The notes under the pieces were generated by a model. The model saw only the letters and a list, made by a program, of their open reading frames with translations. It made no database searches and had not been told where the DNA came from. Positions 1-12,004 of a stretch of DNA of 64,000 nt are shown piece after piece. Every line of letters starts with the position of its first letter. Position 1 is the first letter of the stretch. A program made the translations under genes and the position numbers. The DNA is from Corynebacterium canis (GTDB lineage: Bacteria; Actinomycetota; Actinomycetes; Mycobacteriales; Mycobacteriaceae), in the NCBI RefSeq assembly GCF_030408595.1, contig NZ_CP047080.1, positions 807,501-871,500 on the forward strand. The letters are read 5' to 3'.

Positions 1-555
<555 letters not shown>

Positions 556-616
556 ACAACCACCACGCGTCCACTACACAGTATCCACCACCAACACCAC
601 CCCAAAAACCAAAAAC

Positions 617-735
617 TTGTCGGTGGCAACAGCGGCGGGGAAACGCCCGGACCCATCCCGAACCCGGAAGCTAAGCCCACCAGCGCCAATGGTACTGCAC
701 ACGGCAGTGTGTGGGAGAGTAGGACACCGCCGACA
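617..735 (+). rRNA. 5S ribosomal RNA
   Basis: A 119-base 5S gene lies about 60 bases after the 23S end. The terminal helix pairs TTGTCGGTGG with CCGCCGACA. The GGAAACGCCCGGACCC and GAACCCGGAAGCTAAGCCC blocks and the GGGAGAGTAGG block are all present. Size and sequence fit actinobacterial 5S rRNA. A terminator hairpin follows directly. Confidence 0.97.
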
Positions 736-753
736 CCAAAACCAAACACACTA

Positions 754-784
754 ACGGCCCGGACACACCAACCGGGCCGTTTTT
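754..784 (+). terminator. rrn operon terminator
   Basis: The perfect 9-bp stem ACGGCCCGG/CCGGGCCGT (754-762 with 772-780) has a 9-base loop and runs into TTTT. It lies 19 bases after the 5S gene and is the evident intrinsic terminator of the rRNA operon. Confidence 0.9.
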
Positions 785-915
785 CACGTCTACACCCACC
801 AAGACAACACAAACACAAAAACACACAAAGAACAAACACGCGACAAGCAGGACACAAGCGGCCGCACCCACGCAAACCCGACACACCAACCACCGCGCCG
901 CGTCACATCCGCCCC

Positions 916-990
916 AGGCAGATCCGACACACCGCTTCCCAATCGGCAGCGTTTCCCCAGGTCGCGAAATCGCCCCTGTCAGATCTGCCT
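916..990. repeat. 75-bp terminal-inverted-repeat element, copy 1
   Basis: It starts AGGCAGATCCGACA and ends TGTCAGATCTGCCT, giving near-perfect 14-bp inverted ends. The interior carries GTTTCCCCAGG and AAATCGCC like the other copies. Its length is exactly 75 bp. One base after the right end another AGGCAGAT begins, forming an ATCTGCCT-C-AGGCAGAT palindrome. Confidence 0.8.
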
Positions 991-1081
991 CAGGCAGATT
1001 CGCACCCCACCCCGCAGACATTGTTTTCGCAGGTCGCTACAGCTTGTCGGCGGCCCGACCTCGCCTGCGCACATCTCGCCC

Positions 1082-1156
1082 AGGCAGATTCGACACACCG
1101 CATCTGCGGCAGCATCGTTTCCCCAAGTCACCAAATCGCCTATGTCAGATGTGCCT
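1082..1156. repeat. 75-bp terminal-inverted-repeat element, copy 2
   Basis: It runs from AGGCAGATTCGACA to TGTCAGATGTGCCT and is 75 bp long. The interior (GTTTCCCCAAGTCACCAAATC) is closest to copy 3. It has the same orientation as copy 1 and lies 91 bp after it. Confidence 0.8.
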
Positions 1157-1379
1157 CAGGCAGATCTGCACCCCCACCCCGGAGACATTGTTTCCGCAGG
1201 TCGCCGAGGCTTGTCGGCGTCTTGACCTCGCCTGCGCGCCCCAGAACAGTCGGTACCTACTGAACCATAACTCGTGCAGGCAGCCCCGATGCCGCAGCCG
1301 GGTATGAATCGCACACCATCTTTGGACCGGCCGTACACACCCCGACCAACAGTCCAACGGGCCACCAAAACCCTTGTCT

Positions 1380-1454
1380 AGGCAGATTCGACACACCGCT
1401 TCCGCAGCAGCATCGTTTCCCCAAGTCACCAAATCGGCCATGTCAGATGTGCCT
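1380..1454. repeat. 75-bp terminal-inverted-repeat element, copy 3
   Basis: It runs from AGGCAGATTCGACA to TGTCAGATGTGCCT and is 75 bp long. The interior is nearly identical to copy 2, so the two look like a recent duplication. It is again followed by C and another AGGCAGAT. Confidence 0.8.
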
Positions 1455-1547
1455 CAGGCAGATCCGCACCCCCAACCCGGAGACATTGTTTCCGCAGGTC
1501 GCCGAAGCTTATCGCCACCGCAATCTTGCCCACACGCACCCCGGCCC

Positions 1548-1622
1548 AGGCACATCCGACACACCGGCCACCGAACGGCAGCATTTCCCCAAGACCCCAG
1601 ATACTGCCCGTCACATCTGCCT
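1548..1622. repeat. 75-bp terminal-inverted-repeat element, copy 4 (diverged)
   Basis: It starts AGGCACATCCGACA and ends GTCACATCTGCCT, so both ends carry the same G-to-C change and still pair. That compensating pattern suggests the pairing itself is maintained. Its length is 75 bp. The interior keeps GGCAGCATTTCCCCAAG but is otherwise diverged. Confidence 0.65.
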
Positions 1623-2005
1623 GAGCAGACTCAACGATCACCCAAAAACTCGGCAACCATCCACAACTGCCCGAGACCAGCAACAAACCCGACGAAGAAG
1701 AGTCGCGCACAACCTACCGCAGAGTGACCAGCCCTAACCACCCACAACCTGAACCACCCACCTAACCCCACTCACCTTCATAATAAATTTTCCCTAAGAA
1801 TTTCCCCTCCAACCCCGCCACCCCCACCTCGCCGCCGCGCGCCTTTGTGTTCGATGTCGCAACGGGCCGCCGTTTCTTTACCGTTTCTTAATATTTCCTG
1901 TCAGATCCTGCGCGCAAGCCAGTATTCGATCGTATATTTGGTAACGATTTTGCACAGGTCAGACGATATGGGGGCACCCTACCGCCACCTTAAGTTACTC
2001 TTAGT

Positions 2006-2033
2006 TTGATAGTTCATTTGCGTCCTATACGAT
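2006..2033 (+). promoter_or_regulatory. Candidate promoter of the SdrD_B-like protein gene
   Basis: TTGATA (2006-2011), a 16-base spacer and TACGAT (2028-2033) form a plausible sigma-70-type promoter 67 bases before the chosen ATG. This is a pattern match only. Confidence 0.35.
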
Positions 2034-2099
2034 GGATTTTCATAGGAATTTGTGTTGAGCCATTGCGTTTTCTCATTCTCTGGAAAGGGGCTGCACTCC

Positions 2100-3551
2100 A
2101 TGTCCAACGCCTTTCGTAAGGCTGGGGTTTCTACCATTGCTGCGCTTACCGTGGTTTTGGCGCCCCACGCGATCACGGCGAACGCGCAGGAGCCAGCTCC
2201 TTGTTGTGGTACGTGGGCTGGCAAGTTGCAGCTGGATAATAACGGCGATGGGAAGTTCTCTAAGGACGTAGACGCGTACTTGGTGGGCTCCACCGTGGAG
2301 TTGGTGAGTGTTTCGTCTCCAGAGCGCGGTGTGGTGTCCACGAGCGGGGTGTCGGACTCTGGCACTTTTGAGTTCAAGGAAGTCCCCTTTGGCCGCTATG
2401 TGGCGCGCGTTCAGGTGCCGGAGGGTTTCGGTTTGTCGCCGTTGGCTTCGGGGTGGGCTGCGGAGGTGCCTGAGTTGGAGGTGGTTCGTGCCGCCGCTCC
2501 CGAGACTCCAGATAAGTCGTACGTGTATTCGGAAGCCGTGGAGGTGAGCGAGGGCGCAAACGCGGTCACGTTCCAAGATCCATTGTTCGTGCCCACCGTT
2601 GGTAAGGTCTCCGGCTCCATTTGGTTCGAAACTGATGGCGATGGCGTCCGGGAGGAGTCGGACGTTACCGGCGCCACCCCAGAAGTGGAGGTGCAGCTGA
2701 TGCGCCGTGCCACGCCGGATGGTTCGATGGAGCCGATCGAGGAGCCGTGGGCGCGCAAGACCAGTTCCGCCAAGGATGGAAAGTTCCTGTTTAAGCACCT
2801 TCCGGCGGGCGAGTATCAGCTGTTGTACCGTTATCCGCGGGGTTTGACGTTTTCCGCGGACGGCGTGGACAATAACGCCACCAGGCAGGTTTCTGAGGGC
2901 CGGGTGAGTGAACCGTTCCGCATTTCGGCGACGCAGAAGTCCGTGACGTTGAATGCGGCGTTGACGTATAGGTTTGCCGGTGACGTGTATTTTGACGCCA
3001 ACGGTGATGGTAAGCGCCAGGTAACGGAGCGGGGCGCGGCGAAGGTAAAGGTTGAGGTTCGTGACGGCGCGGACGTGGTTGCGTCGGTGGATACGGACGC
3101 GAACGGCCGTTACTATTTCACCGATATCGCGGATGGCCGTTATAGCGTGCGCGTGATCGCCCCGAAGCCGTGGCAGGCCGCTGTGAATACCGATAGGCTT
3201 AGCGACGCCGTGACTTTCGACGTCGCTGTCAACGGCAACGAGGTCGCGGGGTTGCGGGAGGTACGCTTGTTGCCGCCGGCGCATTCCACTTCGGGTTCGG
3301 CTCGGGAGACGTTGCCGTTTATCGAGCCTCCCAAGGACGAGGTTTCGGAGCAGCCCGATTTTGGTTACGGCCCGAATCACCCCGATAGGCCCACGAATAT
3401 CGCCACGCTGACCGCCTTGTGGAATGTGTTTGGCGGCGGCGGTGACGCGGAGACCTTGGCGTTTGCGCCGCAGGCGGGGCTGAAAAACACGTTGGAGTCG
3501 TGGTTCCGCCTGATGCTGTGCAAGCTGGGGATTACCAGCAATTGCCGCTAG
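2100..3551 (+). CDS. Secreted SdrD_B-like repeat protein
   Basis: The product is 483 aa and exported. Residues 1-29 form a signal peptide with a likely cut after ANA. Three SdrD_B/Cna_B-like beta-sandwich repeats follow. Each opens with an acidic, calcium-type loop: DNNGDG (46-51), ETDGDG (177-182) and DANGDG (299-304). Each ends with a GxYxVRV-like strand (FGRYVARV, AGEYQLLY, DGRYSVRV). No LPxTG sortase signal or C-terminal membrane anchor is visible, and the tail ends in a short Cys-containing segment, so the protein may be released or held non-covalently. I chose ATG at 2100 because GGAAAGGGG lies just upstream and the signal peptide starts there; a GTG at 2052 is in frame. The gene overlaps the convergent next gene by 4 bases. 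A role in surface structure or adhesion is inferred. Confidence 0.85.
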   Translation: MSNAFRKAGVSTIAALTVVLAPHAITANAQEPAPCCGTWAGKLQLDNNGDGKFSKDVDAYLVGSTVELVSVSSPERGVVSTSGVSDSGTFEFKEVPFGRYVARVQVPEGFGLSPLASGWAAEVPELEVVRAAAPETPDKSYVYSEAVEVSEGANAVTFQDPLFVPTVGKVSGSIWFETDGDGVREESDVTGATPEVEVQLMRRATPDGSMEPIEEPWARKTSSAKDGKFLFKHLPAGEYQLLYRYPRGLTFSADGVDNNATRQVSEGRVSEPFRISATQKSVTLNAALTYRFAGDVYFDANGDGKRQVTERGAAKVKVEVRDGADVVASVDTDANGRYYFTDIADGRYSVRVIAPKPWQAAVNTDRLSDAVTFDVAVNGNEVAGLREVRLLPPAHSTSGSARETLPFIEPPKDEVSEQPDFGYGPNHPDRPTNIATLTALWNVFGGGGDAETLAFAPQAGLKNTLESWFRLMLCKLGITSNCR

Positions 3552-4195
3552 GTGAGTTTCAGCAGGTTCAGCGGGGTTGCTAGCACCTCGTCGATGCGGC
3601 CGGCGTGTTTGCGCAGCTGTTCCCATTGTTGTTGGGGGATGGCGTTGCGGGCCTGTTTGATGGTTTCGGGGTTGGGGGTGCCCCAGGCGATGGGCATGGG
3701 GGAGATTTCGTCCCAGTAGCCGGTGTGTTTTAAGTTGCGACGCCCCGCCACCGCGACCGCCGGCACGCGCTCACCCTCTTGGCGGGAATGCCCGCTGAGG
3801 TTCGTGATGGTGCGGGCGGCCAGTGCGGGCGCGGGGTTGCCTTCGGTGCGGTCCACGCGGGCGTCGACAAGCGCGAGCAGCACCATGTCACGAGGGTTTA
3901 CTTTGGCAATCACGGCGGGCACGAGCTCGTAACTATCGTACATGTGCTGCGCGCTGCCCACCTTTTTGGGGATGATCACCACCATGCTAAAGCTCACCAG
4001 CGCGGACACCCCGAGGCCGGCGGCGAGCAGCCACGCCCACGCCGCCTGGTTGGTGTACCAGATAAATACTCCCGCCACGAGGACCTGCACCACCCCGAAC
4101 ACGATTGCGGATATTTGGAGGCGCCGCTGGTCTTTAAGGAACTCGTTGTGTTCCTTGGCGTGGGCGCTGTCAACGGTAAAGCTAAAGCCGGACAT
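3548..4195 (-). CDS. DUF3239-like membrane protein
   Basis: This 215-aa protein has two adjacent membrane segments near residues 28-45 and 52-75, a short cytosolic head rich in charged residues, and a soluble C-terminal domain of about 140 residues. It resembles the corynebacterial DUF3239 family, whose function is unknown. Its start overlaps the stop of the upstream helicase gene (TAATG), so the two are probably cotranscribed. The assignment rests on overall look and context, not a catalytic motif. Confidence 0.7.
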   Translation of the reverse strand: MSGFSFTVDSAHAKEHNEFLKDQRRLQISAIVFGVVQVLVAGVFIWYTNQAAWAWLLAAGLGVSALVSFSMVVIIPKKVGSAQHMYDSYELVPAVIAKVNPRDMVLLALVDARVDRTEGNPAPALAARTITNLSGHSRQEGERVPAVAVAGRRNLKHTGYWDEISPMPIAWGTPNPETIKQARNAIPQQQWEQLRKHAGRIDEVLATPLNLLKLT

Positions 4196-5862
4196 TAGTT
4201 GTCTTTCATGGGTCGGAGGAGGTCAATTGCGTCGAGGATGCGGTAGGCGTAGCCCTGTTCCGCAAGGAAGCGCTGGCGGTGCGCCGCATAGAGGGTGTCC
4301 TTGCTATCGCGGCTGACAATCGAATAGAAATGCGCCTCGCCGCCATCCGCCTTGGGGCGCAGGATCCGGCCCAAGCGTTGGGCCTCCTCCTGCCGCGATC
4401 CAAAGGTTCCGGATACCTGGATGGCCACCGCCGCCTCCGGAAGGTCGATGGAGAAATTGGCCACCTTGCTTACCACGAGGACGTGTATCTCCCCGCGGCG
4501 GAAGGCGTTAAAGAGCTTTTCTCGCAGCCGGGTCGGGGTCTTGCCCTCGATCACGGGCACCCCCAATTCGGTGCCGATGTGCTCCAATTGGTCCAGGTAG
4601 GCGCCGATGATCAGGGTGGGTTGGCCGGCGTGCAGCTCTAGGAGTTTGCGCACCACGGGCATTTTGGTGGCGGCGCAGGCGGCCAGCCGGTAATGCTCGC
4701 GCGGGTCCGCCACCGAGTAGGCGCGGCGTTCCGCGTCCGTCATGGTGGTGCGGACCTCCACGCAATCCGCGGTGGCGATAAAGCCCTGGTTTTCTATGTC
4801 CTTCCACGGGGCGTCGTAACGCTTCGGACCGATGAGCGAAAAGACATCGCCTTCGCGGCCGTCCTCCCGGATCAGGGTGGCGGTCAGGCCGAGGCGGCGG
4901 CGGGATTGCAGGTCGGAGGTCATGCGGAAGACGGGGGCGGGGAGCAGGTGCACTTCGTCGTAGATAATCAGGCCCCAGTCCCGCGCATCAAAAAGCTCGA
5001 GGGCGCGGTATTCCCCCTTGGTTTTGCGCACCATCACCTGATAGGTGGCGATGGTCACCGGTCGGATTTCCTTCTTTTCGCCAGAATATTCGCCGATCTC
5101 GTCGGCGGTAAGAGTGGTGCGGCGCAGCAGCTCCGCGCGCCATTGCCGGCCCGCAACCGTATTGGTCACCAGGATCAGGGTGGTGGTCTGGGCCTTGGCC
5201 ATCGCCGCCGCCCCGACCATGGTTTTGCCGGCGCCGCACGGCAGCACCACCACGCCGGACCCGCCCTGCCAAAAGGAATCCGCGGCCAATCGCTGGTAAT
5301 CCCGCAGCTCCCAGTCCTCGTGTTCCCGCGACAGTTCGATGGGGTGCGCCTCGCCATCCACATAGCCGGCGAGGTCCTCCGCGGGCCAGCCGATCTTTAG
5401 CAATTCCTGCTTGAGGCGGCCGCGTTCAGAGGCGTGGACCACGATGGTTTCCCGGTCGATCTGCTGGCCCAACATCGGCTGGATCTTTTTATGCATCTGG
5501 ATCTCGGTAAGGATGTCCGGTTCCGTGGATTCCAAGATCAGCCCGTGGGCGGGGTGTTTGTGCAGGCGCACGCGGCCATAGCGCGCCATGGTTTCCGCGA
5601 CGTCGATAAGCAATGGTTGGGGGACGGGGAAACGGGAGTAACGCTCGAGCACATCGACTATTTGTTCGGCATCGTGTCCGGCGGCGCGGGCGTTCCACAA
5701 TGCCAGCGGGGTAATCCGGTAGGTATGCACGTGTTCGGGCGCACGTTCGAGTTCGGCAAAGGGGGCTAGGCCCGCGCGTGCCTCTTCGCTACGCGGGTGA
5801 TTTACCTCTAACAACACGGTTTTATCGGATTGCACAATGAGCGGACCGTCACCAAAGGACAC
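4195..5862 (-). CDS. XPB/ERCC3-type superfamily II DNA helicase
   Basis: This 555-aa helicase closely matches the actinobacterial XPB proteins such as mycobacterial ErcC3. After an N-terminal domain come CGAGKT (Walker A, residues 209-214), DEVH (302-305), GLTAT (motif III, 325-329) and RLGRILRP (motif VI, near 500). A DNA-damage-recognition-like N-terminal region precedes the motor. Family members unwind DNA 3' to 5' using ATP and are linked to repair. The next gene upstream on the same strand is the helicase-associated partner found beside XPB in mycobacteria (Rv0861c/Rv0862c), and the gap is only 33 bp. This supports a functional pair. Confidence 0.95.
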   Translation of the reverse strand: MSFGDGPLIVQSDKTVLLEVNHPRSEEARAGLAPFAELERAPEHVHTYRITPLALWNARAAGHDAEQIVDVLERYSRFPVPQPLLIDVAETMARYGRVRLHKHPAHGLILESTEPDILTEIQMHKKIQPMLGQQIDRETIVVHASERGRLKQELLKIGWPAEDLAGYVDGEAHPIELSREHEDWELRDYQRLAADSFWQGGSGVVVLPCGAGKTMVGAAAMAKAQTTTLILVTNTVAGRQWRAELLRRTTLTADEIGEYSGEKKEIRPVTIATYQVMVRKTKGEYRALELFDARDWGLIIYDEVHLLPAPVFRMTSDLQSRRRLGLTATLIREDGREGDVFSLIGPKRYDAPWKDIENQGFIATADCVEVRTTMTDAERRAYSVADPREHYRLAACAATKMPVVRKLLELHAGQPTLIIGAYLDQLEHIGTELGVPVIEGKTPTRLREKLFNAFRRGEIHVLVVSKVANFSIDLPEAAVAIQVSGTFGSRQEEAQRLGRILRPKADGGEAHFYSIVSRDSKDTLYAAHRQRFLAEQGYAYRILDAIDLLRPMKDN

Positions 5863-5895
5863 CGTCTGCCTCCTGAACTGATGGGAATATAAAGC

Positions 5896-8145
5896 CTAAT
5901 TATCTACGACGACGGTGGTAATGCGGTGCAATTGGTACCGGTGAACCGCCCCCGAAGTTTCCTCGATGGCGTCCACTTGGCCGCCCGATACTGTGAGCGG
6001 TAGCACCACCCGCGCCGTCGCAATGCCGTGCTTATCCACAAAGCCCAGCGTTACCCTCGTACCCGAACGTACCGCAGCCTGCAGCACCGCCAAAATCTCC
6101 GCAGTGGAGCGGGTGGATTCGCCTTCCGTCACCGTTTTTAGCTCGTTTGCGCGAATCCGCTGAATAATCTTGCGGACGTCCGGCCGCTGCGGTTCCTCCG
6201 CTGGCTCCGGCGTCACATAGGTGGGCACGCGGCGCGGCGGGGGCCGCAGGTCTAGCGCAACTCCGTGCGAATCCTCCGCGAGCGGCTTGAACCCATTTCG
6301 GCGCAGGGTTTCGATCATAGATCCGAGCGGCAGCTTAGACACCGCAACCGTGGGAGCCAGCAGCCGCAACGCCGGAATCGCCTGCACCGCATGCTCCAGC
6401 AGCGCCTCATCGTCCGAGCGCAGGTAACACATGACGGGGCCGCCGCGCAGGCTTCCGTATTGCCGCGCCAGGTCCGTGAGCAGGTATGAAAGGGCCTGCG
6501 GCACCTCCCCGACGATGTGCTTTTCTAACAATTCCGTAATGTCGCCCGCGCCCATGCCCGCGTCCATCGCCCTGTGTAACGACGCCTCGGAAATACGGTA
6601 TACGCTCGCCAAACCCGCCGACTCCACCTCGGCTATCAGTTCTAATTGTTGGCGGAGCTGGGCGGTGAGCGGGCCGGGGGCAAGGATCGTCATATCGCCT
6701 TGAGCGATCAAATAATCGACCGCCTGCGGGGTCGCCTGTTTGGCCGCCGCGACCAGCTTTTCCGGCGCATCGATCAATGCCACCGCCAGGTTTGTGGGGC
6801 GGTGATCCGGGCTGAGGATCCCCAGCCAAATGGCCTCTTCGATGATGTGGTTGGCGGCGTGGATATGGTGGGCGTACAGCGGGCTTTCAAAGGCCGCCAT
6901 GGACAGGGCCTGATCGGGGGTGAGCTGCCCGCGGTGCGCGTATTGGCGCAGCAAGATTTTCTTGTCCGTGTGCAGGGAGTAGCGGTATGTGGATTCGGAA
7001 AGCAATTGGATCGGCTTTTTCACCAGCCACGGCATCCACCGGCTGGTCAGCCAATTGCGCGCCAGGTCCGCCCATTGCTCGTGCAAATCCAGCCGCAACC
7101 ATTGGGTGGCCAGGTTCGTGGGGCAGAGGTAATCGTTATAGGTGTTGTTTTCCGGCGGCGGTTCCGGGGCGCCGCGGGAGAGCATTTGGGTTTCCTCGCC
7201 GAGGCACACCAGGCGGCACACCGTCAATGTGTCCACTTGCAGGTGTTTGGCCATGCGCTGCACTACCCGCACGCCGAGGGTGCCCCGCTGCACGCAGCTC
7301 GCGGGGTTTTCGGTCAGGTATTCGATCAGCAGGCGGAAGTAGCGCACCACCTCGAGGCCGTTCGCGGCAGCCTGCTCGTCGGCCTGGGCCAGCTCGGCCT
7401 TGGACAAGGCGCGTTCGGGGTGCGTTGCGGTAAAGGGGATATGCAGCGGCCCGAGGTCCCACAGCACCCGTTTGGTCACCTGGGCGAGCCGGACGGTGTG
7501 GGAATCTTGGCGTCTCAGCAGGCCCGCGGCGAGGAGTTTGGGCACCGGGCGGTTGGGGTCCGCATCCGGATCCGCGTCCTTGGTCACGCCGCCCCCGCCG
7601 GATTCCAGCAGGGTGTCCAGGATCCGTTGGCAGCGCGTGCCCGAGTTCGCGATAAACTCCGCGGCCTCCTCGTAGGTGGGCATGGGCACGCCGGGCTCCG
7701 GCAGCAGCTGCCAATCCAGGGGCAGGCTGGACATCGCTTCCGGAACCACCATAAAGCTGTCCGCATCCCCGTACACCAATGCGTAGGCGCGTAACGTCCG
7801 AAACGCCTCTTGGATTGTTTCCGGTTCGGGGGAGCCGGAGGGGGAGTCTTGGGTGGCCGAGGTGATCCTTTTGATTACCTCCGCCAGCGAAACCGGAGTC
7901 AATTCCCCGCCGAGGCGCGCCGCCGCCTCCAGGGTGAGCAATGCTGGGGCGTCCACTTCCTTCAGCGCCGCCAGCACCCGCGTCGGAGTGCGCAAACGCC
8001 CAGCTAGCGTGGTAAATCCGGGCGCATCGGGGATCACAATGTCCGGACGATGAGTGATTATTTCCCCTAAGAGTTCATCGTCGATCGCCGTAAGCCATTC
8101 CCGGAACGTAGGAAAACGTCCGGCCCCATCCGCGTTCTTTTTCAT
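5896..8145 (-). CDS. Helicase-associated protein (Rv0862c-like)
   Basis: The product is about 749 aa, mostly helical, with no Walker motifs. It resembles actinobacterial helicase-associated proteins (Helicase_C_3/XPB-neighbour type) that sit upstream of the XPB helicase. The C-terminal third carries the conserved IEETSGAVHRYQLHRI end and a KLPLGSMIETLRRNGF segment. I chose ATG at 8145 (MKKNADG) because the family starts shortly before the FREWLTAIDDELL block. Earlier in-frame starts up to 8211 exist but would run into the divergent promoter region. Its role is inferred to be partner or regulator of the helicase. Confidence 0.85.
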   Translation of the reverse strand: MKKNADGAGRFPTFREWLTAIDDELLGEIITHRPDIVIPDAPGFTTLAGRLRTPTRVLAALKEVDAPALLTLEAAARLGGELTPVSLAEVIKRITSATQDSPSGSPEPETIQEAFRTLRAYALVYGDADSFMVVPEAMSSLPLDWQLLPEPGVPMPTYEEAAEFIANSGTRCQRILDTLLESGGGGVTKDADPDADPNRPVPKLLAAGLLRRQDSHTVRLAQVTKRVLWDLGPLHIPFTATHPERALSKAELAQADEQAAANGLEVVRYFRLLIEYLTENPASCVQRGTLGVRVVQRMAKHLQVDTLTVCRLVCLGEETQMLSRGAPEPPPENNTYNDYLCPTNLATQWLRLDLHEQWADLARNWLTSRWMPWLVKKPIQLLSESTYRYSLHTDKKILLRQYAHRGQLTPDQALSMAAFESPLYAHHIHAANHIIEEAIWLGILSPDHRPTNLAVALIDAPEKLVAAAKQATPQAVDYLIAQGDMTILAPGPLTAQLRQQLELIAEVESAGLASVYRISEASLHRAMDAGMGAGDITELLEKHIVGEVPQALSYLLTDLARQYGSLRGGPVMCYLRSDDEALLEHAVQAIPALRLLAPTVAVSKLPLGSMIETLRRNGFKPLAEDSHGVALDLRPPPRRVPTYVTPEPAEEPQRPDVRKIIQRIRANELKTVTEGESTRSTAEILAVLQAAVRSGTRVTLGFVDKHGIATARVVLPLTVSGGQVDAIEETSGAVHRYQLHRITTVVVDN

Positions 8146-8209
8146 GATGCCAACGAGTTTAGTGCGTGAAGAGGTGACTTTTCTGCCCCTCATTTGAAAG
8201 AATAGGCAC

Positions 8210-8404
8210 ATGGCTAATATGGAAAAGAAGGGCTACGTCGATCCGGGTTGGCCCGAGCACGCTCCCGGCGACGGCCACGTTGTCACCGAACTCATTTCTA
8301 AGGTTTCTGGAGCTTCCAGCCCTTATGGTGATGAGACCCCCTTCCCGCTCCCCGCGGAGAAGCTGGGCTACGTCCACCCGTACACTCGAACCAACAAGCC
8401 CTGA
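8210..8404 (+). CDS. Small conserved actinobacterial protein
   Basis: This 64-aa soluble protein is rich in Pro and Gly, with DPGWPEHAPGDGHVVTE and KLGYVHPYT blocks. It looks like a small conserved protein of unknown function encoded opposite the XPB operon in actinobacteria. ATG at 8210 is preceded by GAAAG. It is divergent from the helicase partner gene, and the two share an upstream region of about 65 bp. I have no functional evidence. Confidence 0.75.
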   Translation: MANMEKKGYVDPGWPEHAPGDGHVVTELISKVSGASSPYGDETPFPLPAEKLGYVHPYTRTNKP

Positions 8405-8489
8405 GGCTGATTGGTAGGCACATAGCGGTTGTGGGGCTCCCCGCACGTCCAAGCTCTTGCGGCGGCGGGGAGTTTTGTAGCCTTGCGGT

Positions 8490-9341
8490 ATGGGCACATT
8501 GAGCTATAGCAGCAGCATTGAAACTGTACCGTTGCGCAAACAAGGGGGCTTGGCGGCGTTTGATCCGGTGACATTGCGGCTCGCCGCCGAAACCTGCGCG
8601 GGCGAAGTGATGTCCGTGCGCGCGCCGAGCGGGCTCGAGGGGGCGTGCCCAGAGTCTTTACGAGCCTTGGCGCAGGTCACCGTCGAGCGCGACCCTCGAG
8701 GCTGGCCGAAAATCGTATGCACTATCGATACCGGCGATATGCCGTGGTCAGTGCGCCATCGCCCAATCGAATCCACGTTCACTACCTATGCGGGCGACCG
8801 TATCGCGGCCGTGGAGTTTGCCTCCCTGCGCGTCGCGGAGACCGAGGCCGGTGCCGTAACCAAGATTCCCATGCGGCTACCTGCGGGAACATTGGTCGAC
8901 GCGTGGTTTTTGGAGCTCGGCCAAGAGCTTAGCGAGGTCGATGGATTAGCGTTGCAGCGGCTAGCCTCCGGGGCGATGCGGGGGTTTTCGCTTATCGACG
9001 CCGCGTCCGAAACGTTCCTGGCCGAGGTCCACGTGCCACAGCTCGAGCTCGAATATAGGTGCGATATCAGCGGTGTGTTGCAATTCGATGCCCCATCCGA
9101 GGTGGAACAGCATTTTACCGCGGAACTCGATGTCCAGGGTGCGCGCGTGCGGGCCACCACCGTGGTGATGGTCGGTGCGGCGCTGCATCACAGCGCGCCC
9201 GTAGCTCCGCCGCCGGTGGTTCGTTTCGGGGAACACGGCCCAGTGCTGTGGTGGTTCGCCGAGCAACAAGCCGATCGGGCATCGCTGCCGTTTGCGCTTA
9301 TATATATGGAATCGCCCGTGTGGACCGCCGCTAGCCACTAG
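8490..9341 (+). CDS. Hypothetical protein, corynebacterial
   Basis: The 283-aa product has no signal peptide, no clear membrane segment and no motif I recognise. It is beta-rich by composition, with acidic patches, and has an FSLIDAASETF segment near residue 170. Codon use matches its neighbours, so it is probably a resident gene. It follows the small conserved gene by 85 bp and may be transcribed with it. The CTTATCGAC word at 8990 lies inside it. Confidence 0.75.
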   Translation: MGTLSYSSSIETVPLRKQGGLAAFDPVTLRLAAETCAGEVMSVRAPSGLEGACPESLRALAQVTVERDPRGWPKIVCTIDTGDMPWSVRHRPIESTFTTYAGDRIAAVEFASLRVAETEAGAVTKIPMRLPAGTLVDAWFLELGQELSEVDGLALQRLASGAMRGFSLIDAASETFLAEVHVPQLELEYRCDISGVLQFDAPSEVEQHFTAELDVQGARVRATTVVMVGAALHHSAPVAPPPVVRFGEHGPVLWWFAEQQADRASLPFALIYMESPVWTAASH

Positions 9342-9444
9342 CGCGGATCCTTTTTGTCCTAGGCCTTCTGTCAGCCCGCCCGCCGAATCTCCCTTGTAGA
9401 TTTTGAGCCTCTTCGAACCATCGGCCCCTCGTCGAATCTGCCTC

Positions 9445-9519
9445 AGGCAGATCTGACAGGGCGAGTTCGGCGTCCTGCGGAAACACCACCGCACGACGGC
9501 CGCCATGTCGAATCTGCCT
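9445..9519. repeat. 75-bp terminal-inverted-repeat element, copy 5 (opposite orientation)
   Basis: It starts AGGCAGATCTGACA and ends TGTCGAATCTGCCT, exactly 75 bp. Read on the minus strand its interior (GTGTTTCCGCAGG and ACTCGCCCTGTCAGATCTGCCT) aligns with copies 1-3. As in those copies an extra ATCTGCCT palindrome partner abuts the TGTCAGATCTGCCT end. It lies in the 9342-9930 gene-free gap. Confidence 0.8.
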
Positions 9520-9686
9520 GATCACGGGTTCGCGGGTCGGCGTCCGCGGTAAAAAGACCCCACGAATAAAGCTCAACCGCCGGAGTTTGGGCGCGCAGCC
9601 AGCGTGAAACCTTGGGCTTCCGCAACCTGAACCACCCAAGCAACGATCGAACTTTTTCGAACCACTGGCCCCGCTGAATCTGCCTC

Positions 9687-9761
9687 AGGCAGATCTAACA
9701 GGGCCGTTTTGCGTTCCTGCGGAAACGCCACCAGCTGACGGGTGGCATGTCGGATCTGCCT
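9687..9761. repeat. 75-bp terminal-inverted-repeat element, copy 6 (opposite orientation)
   Basis: It starts AGGCAGATCTAACA and ends TGTCGGATCTGCCT, again exactly 75 bp. Copies 5 and 6 also share flanking sequence (TTCGAACCA on one side and GGCGTCCGCGG/AGC on the other), so a unit larger than 75 bp was duplicated here. No coding gene is seen between 9342 and 9930. Confidence 0.8.
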
Positions 9762-9876
9762 GACCGAGGGGTTCGAGGGCCGGCGTCCGCAGCAAAACGA
9801 CAACGATGAAGCCCAACACATCCCCAGTGCGTCGTCGTACTGAACTGCGCAGGTTAGGGGCGCGGCGTCGATAAGC

Positions 9877-9906
9877 AAAAGGAAACCCCCTCAATGGATG
9901 AGGGGG
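9877..9906 (-). terminator. Terminator after the first acetate-type symporter
   Basis: CCCCCTC (9886-9892) pairs with GAGGGGG (9900-9906) across a 7-base loop. On the minus strand it is followed by TTTCCTTTT. It lies 25 bp beyond the stop of the symporter gene, in the right orientation. Confidence 0.7.
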
Positions 9907-9930
9907 GCGGGGTGAGCGAGCGGGGGAAAA

Positions 9931-11562
9931 TTAGTGCGAAACAGCCTTTTCCACACCGACGCCGGTCAGGGAGCGGACCTCCATCTCCGCTGCCTTGAGC
10001 GGGAAGTTGTCCGGCTTGCCGATCAGGGTGCCGATAATGCCGAGCAGGAAGCCGGCGGGGATGGCAATGATCGACGGGTTGGTGAGCGGGAACCACGCGA
10101 AGTCAGCGCTGGGGATCATGGCGGTTTCTGCGCCCGAGACGGCCGGGGAGAAGATGATCAGGATGATCGAGGTGAGCAGGCCGCCATAGATGGAGAACAG
10201 TGCGCCGGTGGTGTTAAAGCGCTTCCAGTAGAGGGAGAACAGGATGGTTGGCAGGTTTGCCGACGCCGCGATACCGAACGCCAGTGCAACGAGGAAGGCG
10301 ATGTTCTGGCCCATCGCTCCGATACCAAGGACGATCGCGAGGATGCCGATCACCACCACGGTGATGCGGGAGACGCGCACCTGCTCTTCTTCGGTGGCTT
10401 GCCCGTTGCGGAACACGGAGTTATAGAGGTCGTGGGCAACGGATGCGGAGGCGGTAATCGCCAGGCCGGCCACCACGGCGAGGATCGTAGCGAAAGCAAT
10501 TGCGGAAATGCAGGCCATGAAGATGGTGCCGCCGACGCGGGAGGACAGCAGGAGCACCGCGGAGTTCACGCCGCCCGGAGCTGCCTTGATCTGTTCGGGG
10601 CCAACCAGCGCTGCGGCGGCGTAGCCCATGACCACGGTGAGCAGGAAGAACAGCGCCACGATCGCGATGGTCCAGGTGACGGAGCGGCGCGCCTCGCGGG
10701 CGGTGGGCACGGTGTAGAAGCGCATCAGCACGTGCGGAAGACCGGAGGTGCCGAACACCAGTGCCATGCCGAGGGAGATGAAGTCGATCTTGGTGATGAT
10801 GTCTTTGCCGTACTTCTGGCCGGGGTTGAGGATGGCCTCGCCGCCGGGGTGGTTTGCAACCGCAGCTTCGAGGGTGGCGTTGAACCCGCCGCCGATTGCC
10901 CAGAAGGCGAGCAGCGAAATGATCAGGGAGCCGCCGACCAGGAGCACTGCCTTAATCATCTGCACATAGGTGGTGCCCTTCATGCCGCCGATCAGGACGT
11001 AGGCGATCATGAGCACGCCTACGATGGCGACGACGCCGGCTTGTGCGCCAGTGCCAGAGACGCCGAGGAGCAGGGCCACCAGGCCGCCAGCGCCGGCCAT
11101 TTGTGCGATGAGGTAGAACAGCGAGATCGTCAAGGTGGAGATCGCGGCGGCGGTGCGCACGGGGCGTTGCTTCAGGCGGAAGGACAACACGTCCGCCATG
11201 GTGAACTTACCGGTGTTACGCAGCGGTTCCGCGACGAGCACTAGGGCGACCAGCAGGGCGATCAGGAAGCCAACTGAGTACAGGAAGCCGTCGTAGCCGT
11301 AGAGCGCGATGGCGCCGGTGACGCCGAGGAAGGCCGCCGCAGAGAGGTAGTCGCCCGAGATAGCCAGGCCGTTTTGCCAACCGCTGAACGAGGCGCCGCC
11401 CGTGTAGAAGTCCGAACCTTTTTGCGAGGTTTGGCGGGTGGCGCGGATCACGATCGTCATCGTGGCGACGATAAACAGAACGAAGATCGCGATATTGAGG
11501 ATCGGGTTACCGGTTTCAACGGTGCCGCTTGCAGCGGCCAGCGTGGTGGTAGAGAGGTTCAT
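9931..11562 (-). CDS. Sodium:solute symporter, acetate/monocarboxylate type (MctC paralogue)
   Basis: This 543-aa SSS-family transporter has about 13 membrane helices. Family signatures include DFYTGGASFSG, GDYLSAAAFLG, GGMKGTTYVQM and SVAHDLYNSVF. Relatives (ActP, MctC) import acetate, propionate or pyruvate with a cation. The C-terminus ends EVRSLTGVGVEKAVSH as in corynebacterial MctC. It is clearly related to the gene at 38437, which looks like the true MctC orthologue; this copy differs in the ATRQTSQKGSDF segment and the 240-260 loop. Its start overlaps the DUF485 gene stop by 4 bases (ATGA), so the two are translationally coupled. Confidence 0.93.
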   Translation of the reverse strand: MNLSTTTLAAASGTVETGNPILNIAIFVLFIVATMTIVIRATRQTSQKGSDFYTGGASFSGWQNGLAISGDYLSAAAFLGVTGAIALYGYDGFLYSVGFLIALLVALVLVAEPLRNTGKFTMADVLSFRLKQRPVRTAAAISTLTISLFYLIAQMAGAGGLVALLLGVSGTGAQAGVVAIVGVLMIAYVLIGGMKGTTYVQMIKAVLLVGGSLIISLLAFWAIGGGFNATLEAAVANHPGGEAILNPGQKYGKDIITKIDFISLGMALVFGTSGLPHVLMRFYTVPTAREARRSVTWTIAIVALFFLLTVVMGYAAAALVGPEQIKAAPGGVNSAVLLLSSRVGGTIFMACISAIAFATILAVVAGLAITASASVAHDLYNSVFRNGQATEEEQVRVSRITVVVIGILAIVLGIGAMGQNIAFLVALAFGIAASANLPTILFSLYWKRFNTTGALFSIYGGLLTSIILIIFSPAVSGAETAMIPSADFAWFPLTNPSIIAIPAGFLLGIIGTLIGKPDNFPLKAAEMEVRSLTGVGVEKAVSH

Positions 11563-11900
11563 CGGGGGGACTCCATCTTGTCGCGGATCGCGGCGGTTGC
11601 AGGGTCGAGCTTGTTATCGGCGAATCGAACGTATGCCCAGGTAATAAGGCCAGCAGTTGCGAACTGGGCGAGGCCCAACACCATGCCAACATTGATCGCG
11701 CCCCAGACGCGCTGCTGGACAAAATCGGTCGCGAAGGTGGCGGTGATGATGTACCCGAGGTACCAGGCGAGGAACGCCACGCTCACAGGGAATGCGAAGT
11801 GGCGGAAAGTGCCGCGAAGCTCGGCGAACTCATCGCTGTTTGAGACTTCGAGGAATTCCTCTGGGGTGGGAACGTGCTTAGCACGTGTGGCGTCAGTCAT
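11559..11900 (-). CDS. DUF485 small membrane protein (MctB-like)
   Basis: This 113-aa protein has two membrane helices (about 45-68 and 80-103) and the DUF485 signature VWGAINVGMVLGLAQF. DUF485 proteins are usually encoded just before acetate symporters and are thought to help them; the mechanism is unknown. I chose ATG at 11900 (MTDATRAK) because GAGAGG sits 6 bases upstream on the minus strand; longer in-frame starts would read through the promoter region. It is coupled to the symporter by a 4-base overlap. Confidence 0.9.
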   Translation of the reverse strand: MTDATRAKHVPTPEEFLEVSNSDEFAELRGTFRHFAFPVSVAFLAWYLGYIITATFATDFVQQRVWGAINVGMVLGLAQFATAGLITWAYVRFADNKLDPATAAIRDKMESPR

Positions 11901-11988
11901 GTCTACCTCTCTCGGCAGGCTGATCGGGAGAGCTTGTCCTTTTTCATCGCTCTCGAGATTTGAAAGCTGCATCACGCTACGGTGACCT

Positions 11989-12004
11989 TGTGAGACATTA
12001 CACA
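11989..12004. promoter_or_regulatory. GlxR(CRP)-like site upstream of the first symporter operon
   Basis: TGTGAGACATTACACA matches the corynebacterial cAMP-receptor GlxR consensus TGTGA-N6-TCACA at 9 of 10 informative positions. It lies 89 bases before the DUF485 start. GlxR control of acetate genes is known in C. glutamicum; control here is inferred. Confidence 0.5.

Follow-up and report, generated by a model that had tools for sequence, protein, structure and literature searches.

MITEs such as Correia, RUP and Nezha have short inverted ends, carry no gene and are intergenic, and BIME, RIME and BOX are mosaic intergenic repeats with modular palindromes in composites. In the REPIN-RAYT system, REP doublets are found together with a REP-associated tyrosine transposase, according to the parts of the two papers used here (PMC3116915, PMC8266576). 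Repeats of the REP type occur widely, and their described partner is the HUH-type RAYT; one REP superfamily apparently has no dedicated transposase, according to the part used of another paper (PMC3733652).

In Corynebacterium canis and three related species, namely Corynebacterium sp. S30M_Sa_49 (G225), Corynebacterium sp. S17M_Sa_7 (G115) and C. freiburgense (G170), we found a dispersed and mostly intergenic family of palindromic elements with strict geometry, together with a gene that is linked to arrays of their arms. Such a large palindromic family tied to a multi-copy nuclease-like gene suggests a selfish element that spreads with a nuclease and not with a known transposase. The elements share short inverted ends, the lack of a gene and the intergenic location with Correia, RUP and Nezha, but they have a third arm and a conserved core, and neither a target duplication nor, in the search for PF01797 and at the one IS examined, a matching transposase was found. 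Like BIME, RIME and BOX, they are modular palindromes in composites; unlike these, they are tied to a multi-copy protein gene and their arms are strictly spaced. The likeness to the REPIN-RAYT system, as far as the parts used describe it, lies in a short palindromic word that forms many dispersed, intergenic inverted doublets, in genome-specific variants, in clusters, and in a linked gene that is flanked by repeats, here on the 3′ side of the nuclease-like gene. However, the linked protein is weakly REase/Vsr-like and not of the Y1 fold, its gene is present at 18 C. canis loci, and the elements, 75 or 86 bp long, contain a core and in many cases have a third arm as well. The Y1 (RAYT-type) transposase domain PF01797 had no match in C. 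canis, G225, G115 (88% complete) or C. freiburgense (controls positive in 5 of 14), and the Corynebacterium system was therefore not classed as REPIN-RAYT. In addition, the elements resemble the CGTC-tagged REPs, in the part used of that paper, as high-copy palindromic repeats; the mover of the CGTC-tagged REPs is not known, whereas a candidate partner gene exists here, and no fixed CGTC or GTAG tag was seen by eye in the alignments (PMC3733652). The present finding offers one kind of answer to the transposase-less REPs, for a different repeat. Judged from search listings, the literature held nothing on a nuclease-linked Corynebacterium repeat system.

The window, that is, the whole stretch of 64,000 nucleotides of C. 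canis DNA analysed here, had been annotated with six copies of an element of exactly 75 bp, and reading of the sequence bore out both their places and their length (Table 1). Copies 5 and 6 are inverted as had been described; the orientation is told by the core, where CCTGCGGAAA stands in place of TTTCCCCARG. The left-arm word, with at most 2 mismatches, has 13 matches in the window against 1.12 expected, and 0 of 100 shuffles were as high. The arm consensus of the initial annotation holds approximately, but its exact form fails in copies 2-6. For instance, the right end of copies 2 and 3 is TGTCAGATGTGCCT, copy 4 has the ends AGGCACATCCGACA...CGTCACATCTGCCT, copy 5 terminates with TGTCGAATCTGCCT, and copy 6 begins with AGGCAGATCTAACA. 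The supposedly compensated arm changes of copy 4 proved to be no such thing: at position 6 of its left arm G is replaced by C, the base that should pair with it in the right outer arm (ATCTGCCT) is unchanged, and the right-hand change pairs with a different base than left-arm position 6. Meanwhile, the flanking palindrome noted there does exist and is reinterpreted as a third arm beyond the 3′ arm; in copies 2 and 3 it differs by one base, and it is absent from copy 4.

Table 1. Repeat features of the window (positions counted from its first nucleotide)
Feature	Position	Strand	Remarks
Copy 1, 75-bp element	916..990	+	core TTTCCCCAGG at 952-961
Copy 1, third arm	992..999	+	palindrome ATCTGCCTCAGGCAGAT at 983-999
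Copy 2, 75-bp element	1082..1156	+	core TTTCCCCAAG at 1118-1127
Copy 2, third arm	1158..1165	+	
Copy 3, 75-bp element	1380..1454	+	core TTTCCCCAAG at 1416-1425
Copy 3, third arm	1456..1463	+	
Copy 4, 75-bp element, diverged, without intact third arm	1548..1622	+	core TTTCCCCAAG at 1584-1593
Copy 5, 75-bp element	9445..9519	-	core at 9474-9483, minus strand
Copy 5, third arm	9436..9443	-	palindrome at 9436-9452
Copy 6, 75-bp element	9687..9761	-	core at 9716-9725, minus strand
Copy 6, third arm	9678..9685	-	palindrome at 9678-9694
66-bp inter-element module	1005..1070	+	repeated at 1172-1237 and 1470-1535

Two of the 66-bp modules (1172-1237 and 1470-1535) contain an additional TTTCCGCAGG, at 1191-1200 and 1489-1498. 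Copies 1-4 sit after an rRNA operon. An element array was also seen after the 5S gene of a second rRNA operon (locus L099, 3050-4030), and it is related to the array at 736-1640 of the window, with about 77-83% identity in the longer pieces. The nearest copy of the nuclease-like gene is at least about 48 kb away from the elements of the window. The best reading is that the window contains only non-autonomous repeats and not the nuclease-encoding unit.

In the C. canis genome (3,045,310 bp, one contig), there were 132 matches to an arm-N47-arm pattern with at most 3 mismatches, and the reversed-pattern control gave 0. The initial annotation had reasoned that an absence of copies outside the window would mean a local duplication only; since there are 132 matches genome-wide, the family is more than a local duplication. 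The elements occur in both orientations, single or clustered, and their places were read systematically below 2.05 Mb. Alignment of 48 copies (44 of the 132 from C. canis and 4 of 5 from G115, L033 being omitted for its unclear core) showed two conserved parts: the 8-bp arms AGGCAGAT/ATCTGCCT, and the core TTTCCSCARG, which lies off-centre. These copies align without gaps over 95 columns, which is partly built in by the fixed-length pick. A length-tolerant pattern gave 64 matches in the first loci; 62 of them were 75 bp, and lengths of 76 bp and 90 bp were found once each. Furthermore, among facing arm pairs at most 130 bp apart (arms with at most 1 mismatch), only the offsets of 67 bp (102 cases) and 6 bp (16 cases) reached 6 cases, the former corresponding to the 75-bp element. 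The third arm usually follows the 3′ arm and gives the palindrome ATCTGCCT-G/C-AGGCAGAT. Terminal inverted repeats are present, with 8 bp in the arms and 14 bp when mismatches are counted.

Besides the dispersed copies, there are tandem arrays with 242-bp and 93-94-bp periods. Many C. canis elements are embedded in another composite (the GTTGACCTGCGATCG module), which is absent from the two gene units that were inspected at length. A CRISPR or integron array, which would have unique spacers or gene cassettes, was rejected, because the inter-element sequences are themselves repeated. We also noticed abundant composite repeats beside many C. canis elements (e.g., L001-L030), namely GTTGACCTGCGATCGTCCGGAATTTCTTC...CAACGAAGAATAAAAAGACGA and GGTTGCGCACAACC-like palindromes. 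At L104 2089-3048 in Corynebacterium sp. S30M_Sa_49, the elements follow one another head to tail every 93-94 bp, in the manner of a small satellite.

The location of the elements was counted in stretches chosen for elements, with genes predicted by a simple ORF scorer. In 521,551 bp of such stretches, 443 occurrences of the exact arm 8-mer AGGCAGAT/ATCTGCCT lie outside predicted genes and 6 within them. Likewise, 95 of 101 pattern matches are outside the predicted genes and typically follow a gene: 45 between convergent genes, 28 + 15 (43) between co-directional genes and 7 after rRNA operons. The remaining 6 overlap a predicted ORF, and 5 of the 6 ORFs concerned score 3 or less. A place between a divergent pair was seen for none of the 95 and for one of the 6.

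The neighbourhoods of the elements were compared with G115, and by this way a gene was first noticed whose 307-aa product has homologues in multiple copies beside C. canis elements. A whole-genome DNA search found 17 full copies and 1 interrupted copy of this gene, for a protein of about 330 aa, in C. canis. In all 18 copies, the 1.5 kb that follow the gene contain at least 5 exact arms (14 of the 18 loci had been fetched for their elements, and the 4 chosen otherwise agree), whereas any arms 5′ of the gene were found in only 3/18. When linkage is defined as 3 or more exact arms in the 1.5 kb 3′ of the gene, it holds for 24/24 copies in four species, including 4/4 in G225, 1/1 in G115 and 1/1 in C. 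freiburgense. The array starts with an R module, in which the core CCTGGGGAAA is at 0 and the arms are at -76, -46, -27, +24, +33 and +59/60; the search pattern itself confined the +24 arm to about +22 to +27. The full arm spacing is present in 15/18 C. canis copies, one copy is off by 1 bp, and 2 copies are without the upstream arms. The comparison of R modules has 23 rows, of which L123 and G225_C2_135010 are one G225 copy; another G225 copy (L208) gave no match and still has arms. The spacing of -46, +24 and +33 around the core is common to C. canis and C. freiburgense; G115 and both G225 copies that were measured agree with it to within 1 bp. In addition, 75-bp elements lie within 1.5 kb after the gene in 16/18 C. 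canis loci.

The interrupted copy (C. canis 2590790-2594372) carries a 2,665-bp insertion, whose long ORF looks IS3-like to us, and is situated at a conserved mshD-side locus. Gene and array adjoin a common GNAT-like gene, which we take to be mshD-like, in G115, C. freiburgense and one of the G225 copies, and the C. canis counterpart is the interrupted copy. We take the place beside the GNAT-like gene to be an ancestral locus of gene plus array. As a separate observation, TTATCCACA (at most 1 mismatch) is present upstream of the nuclease-like gene in 7/7 copies (L122-L126, L208 and L210), about 75-170 bp before the compared coding part, and also in a 48%-identical homologue of G023. It is accompanied by a facing TGTGGATAA in 3 of the 7 and resembles the DnaA box.

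The initial annotation had proposed a search for the element in this genome and in other Corynebacterium genomes. The element turned out to be dispersed in C. canis and, with an exact pattern, present in 4 of 242 genomes: C. canis (76), G225 (8), G115 (2) and C. freiburgense (2). A fixed-length pattern with mismatches matched in 2 of 151 genomes. A contig scan over 84,980 species, among which C. canis is possibly absent, found elements only in the Corynebacterium MAGs S30M_Sa_49 and S17M_Sa_7. A search in plasmids gave no match; two viral contigs (L110 and L111) match the arm pattern with a length of 80 bp. The left-arm word (at most 1 mismatch, both strands; reversed control in brackets) was counted 358 (2) times in C. 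canis, 60 (2) in G225, 21 (1) in G115 and 97 (1) in C. freiburgense, and 8 (0), 2 (3), 4 (4), 1 (1) and 2 (3) times in five other genomes. The four element-bearing species are each other's nearest relatives (helicase 92%, next 84%). They form one clade, and thus the co-occurrence of gene and arms counts as one origin and not as four cases.

Homologues of the protein were found in 90 of 242 Corynebacterium genomes. Among the matches listed, homologues of at least 58% identity are confined to C. canis, G225, G115 and C. freiburgense, and arms after the gene were found only for this subfamily. For the distant homologues, 0/26 loci (L126-L151) have at least 3 arms; in G128, G147, G003, G030 and G023, where 30 of 44 matches were taken, 0/30 loci have 3 arms and one has a single arm, the sets of 26 and 30 overlapping. 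The flanks of the distant homologues in these five genomes gave few short cross-matches, of 119 bp at most. G128, G147, G003 and G030 have 8 to 14 diverged protein homologues per genome, and the repeats are absent from the loci fetched.

C. freiburgense has a dispersed family of its own. With the length-tolerant pattern in 18 stretches, 10/10 matched copies were 86 bp, and 9 of these have an extra arm 31-32 bp before; one 75-bp copy is also present in this species. The core is 36 bp from the left arm in both types; the distance from core to right arm is longer in C. freiburgense (42 bp) than in C. canis (31 bp), by about one helical turn. The gene array of C. freiburgense is the simplest, with arm -46, core, arm +24 and arm +33.

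The C-terminal part of the linked protein weakly matches the family MTES_1575 (PF18741), described as Vsr-REase in the part used of the source (PMC3710099). Over 15 members, the best E value was 0.00048, and 12/15 relatives match at 0.1 or better; scores of 13-19 bits stand against a curated cut-off of 38.2, and the C. canis and G115 proteins are far below this cut-off. DUF559 was matched in 4/15. The protein has the conserved pattern SPPET...D.GW...YDG.HH, which in our judgement fits a REase-like site. A 29%-identical homologue has matches to PF09407 and PF18741, as well as AbiEi matches. PADLOC gave no match for the C. canis protein, and in the PDB search its sole match was 3hrl (E 0.096). 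From these comparisons, we regard the linked protein as putatively nuclease-like, with a weak match to the Vsr/REase fold. In this weak domain match it is like the MTES_1575/DUF559/Vsr-like REase proteins with AbiEi-like regions, as covered by the part used of that paper (PMC3710099); unlike the others, only the subfamily of at least 58% identity was found with arms after the gene.

The gene copies are under purifying selection. No stop was found in the 305 codons compared among the 17 full copies; over their 136 pairs, the mean dS was 0.228 and the mean dN/dS 0.055 (maximum 0.106). Nucleotide identity among them is 92-99%, and protein identity is 96% or more. The low dN/dS suggests that the gene must work to be copied, and redundant host genes would be unlikely to be so constrained.

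The unit of gene plus array (about 2-2.5 kb) has a common left end near GGACGGCATTATACCC, which differs from the arms carried in its 3′ array. Beyond this end, most of the 17 flanks are unrelated, and in two pairs of units the shared sequence extends further left. The two units most alike share 97% identity along 2.5 kb and have divergent flanks at both ends, where neither a terminal inverted repeat nor a convincing target duplication was found. Homologous sites with and without the element had been suggested for comparison. One C. canis segment is syntenic with G225 at about 80% nucleotide identity; four of its intergenic stretches, which contain elements and are 1060, 859, 839 and 1233 bp long, correspond to 82, 62, 109 and 33 bp in G225, as lengths between BLAST ends at sites A-D of seven. 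At site E, G225 has about 6 kb of other DNA, and sites F and G have no element in the stretch inspected. One gene unit lies in a 4.0-kb C. canis stretch with a further ORF, against 74 bp in G225, and two gene units are common to both genomes. Thus, elements are missing from several G225 sites, but the junctions are not placeable, as the G225 sites are too diverged. The filled and short sites were compared between these two genomes, and the difference may also be due to loss in G225.

We give a little better than an even chance to the reading that the 75-bp elements belong to a mobile family as its non-autonomous, REPIN-like members, with the nuclease gene plus arm array as the autonomous one. 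The linked protein would recognise the AGGCAGAT/ATCTGCCT arms, perhaps via its N-terminal part (this part of a distant homologue has a match to AbiEi antitoxins), and would nick or cut there. Repair of the break might then copy the unit of gene plus array into other intergenic sites downstream of genes, and the short elements might be copied in trans by repair of the same breaks. Movement of the elements by the nuclease is what we infer here. The miniature inverted-repeat or REP-like family proposed by the initial annotation is retained in this reading insofar as the elements are dispersed, intergenic and missing at G225 sites; the pairing of arms is unsupported, and the link with a gene had not been seen. 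More tentatively, and with somewhat less than an even chance, the system may represent a new class of mobile element, in which a single AbiEi-like/Vsr-REase nuclease gene copies itself and REPIN-like elements without a transposase, with species-specific versions around one 8-bp arm and core. Should a REase-fold nuclease indeed take the part of the RAYT, populations of miniature palindromic elements could be maintained by enzymes of more than one class, and a role would be found for some members of a protein family about which little is known.

Several points stand against the nuclease reading. The domain match is weak (PF18741 E 0.098 for the C. canis protein, below Pfam's cut-off), and the C. 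canis paralogues are copies and not independent cases, in four species of one clade. C. freiburgense has dozens of dispersed arm words and a single gene copy. Furthermore, the most similar unit pair is without a terminal inverted repeat or common target duplication, two unit pairs share sequence beyond the common left end, and loss in G225 is possible, with two units common to both genomes. In addition, at least about 48 kb separate the elements of the window from any gene copy, and one G225 gene copy with arms does not match the R-module pattern.

It is unlikely, in our opinion, that only the gene unit is mobile and that the short elements are passive, being remnants of decayed units or products of tandem slippage and not moved in trans. 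Arrays beyond the first module, or nearby 75-bp elements, are present at 17/18 C. canis gene loci, so gene loss would leave arrays, and the two tandem periods show local duplication. However, most elements have no gene copy nearby (18 gene loci against 132 matches), many are embedded in the GTTGACCTGCGATCG composite that the inspected units lack, and C. freiburgense has one gene copy and 10/10 matched copies of one 86-bp type. Rather unlikely as well, the arms could be binding sites of a chromosome-organising or regulatory protein, where the linked protein binds without moving and recombination spreads the arms. The fixed spacing, with 31 and 42 bp between core and right arm, suggests helical phasing, and the outer arms are nearly invariant without covariation; but 17 dispersed copies under purifying selection would be more typical of a self-propagating element, and whole blocks of 0.8-1.2 kb are gained or lost between sites. 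Improbable, although short inverted ends, high copy number and intergenic location would fit, are ordinary MITEs moved by an unrelated DDE-type transposase, as the arms also occur in threes and, with other spacing, in R modules. The initial annotation had looked to transposase genes with matching ends; the one IS examined near the C. canis arrays is 1638 bp long. Its ends (TGTCATCTCTCAGG / TGTAGAATCTCGCG) are unlike the arms, so that it was rejected as mover of the elements, and it uses the composite repeats as insertion sites of its own.

An RNA element at gene 3′ ends, such as a terminator, attenuator or mRNA stabiliser, is very improbable. The convergent, co-directional and post-rRNA locations, with no divergent pair among the matches outside ORFs, would suit it, and REPs elsewhere are likewise mostly downstream of genes, in the part used of the source (PMC3733652). 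On the other side, elements in both orientations lie between convergent genes, and stem pair 15/71 is unpaired in 39/48 copies. RNAalifold retained 5 nearly invariant pairs in the 48 copies with no covariation, and 14 pairs of the 14-bp stem in these copies gave 0 double changes, so that the hairpin kept by paired changes, a REPIN-RAYT feature, was not seen in a test of low power, in which the outer 8 bp are nearly invariant and invariance is partly built in by picking copies by their arms. The covariation term was only -0.18 in the R modules. The earlier hint that arm pairing matters thus found no support. Rfam matched only rRNA in window 1-12000 and in L099. A coding origin of the 75 bp (25 codons, one frame reading RQIRH...FPQ..DLPEAD) was rejected, since no frame exceeds column shuffles (synonymous fraction z -0.6, BLOSUM score z 1.0); the candidate frame has a stop in 7/44 C. 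canis copies.

The 1638-bp IS encodes a 457-aa protein, which we take to be its transposase. In 6/6 C. canis copies compared (L051, L056, L058, L093, L094 and L102), it occupies the same site inside a composite intergenic repeat, so it is a site-specific parasite of the repeats. Its target is duplicated over 14 bp in these copies, in one case with a mismatch. Copies of the IS share the first 50 residues of the protein.
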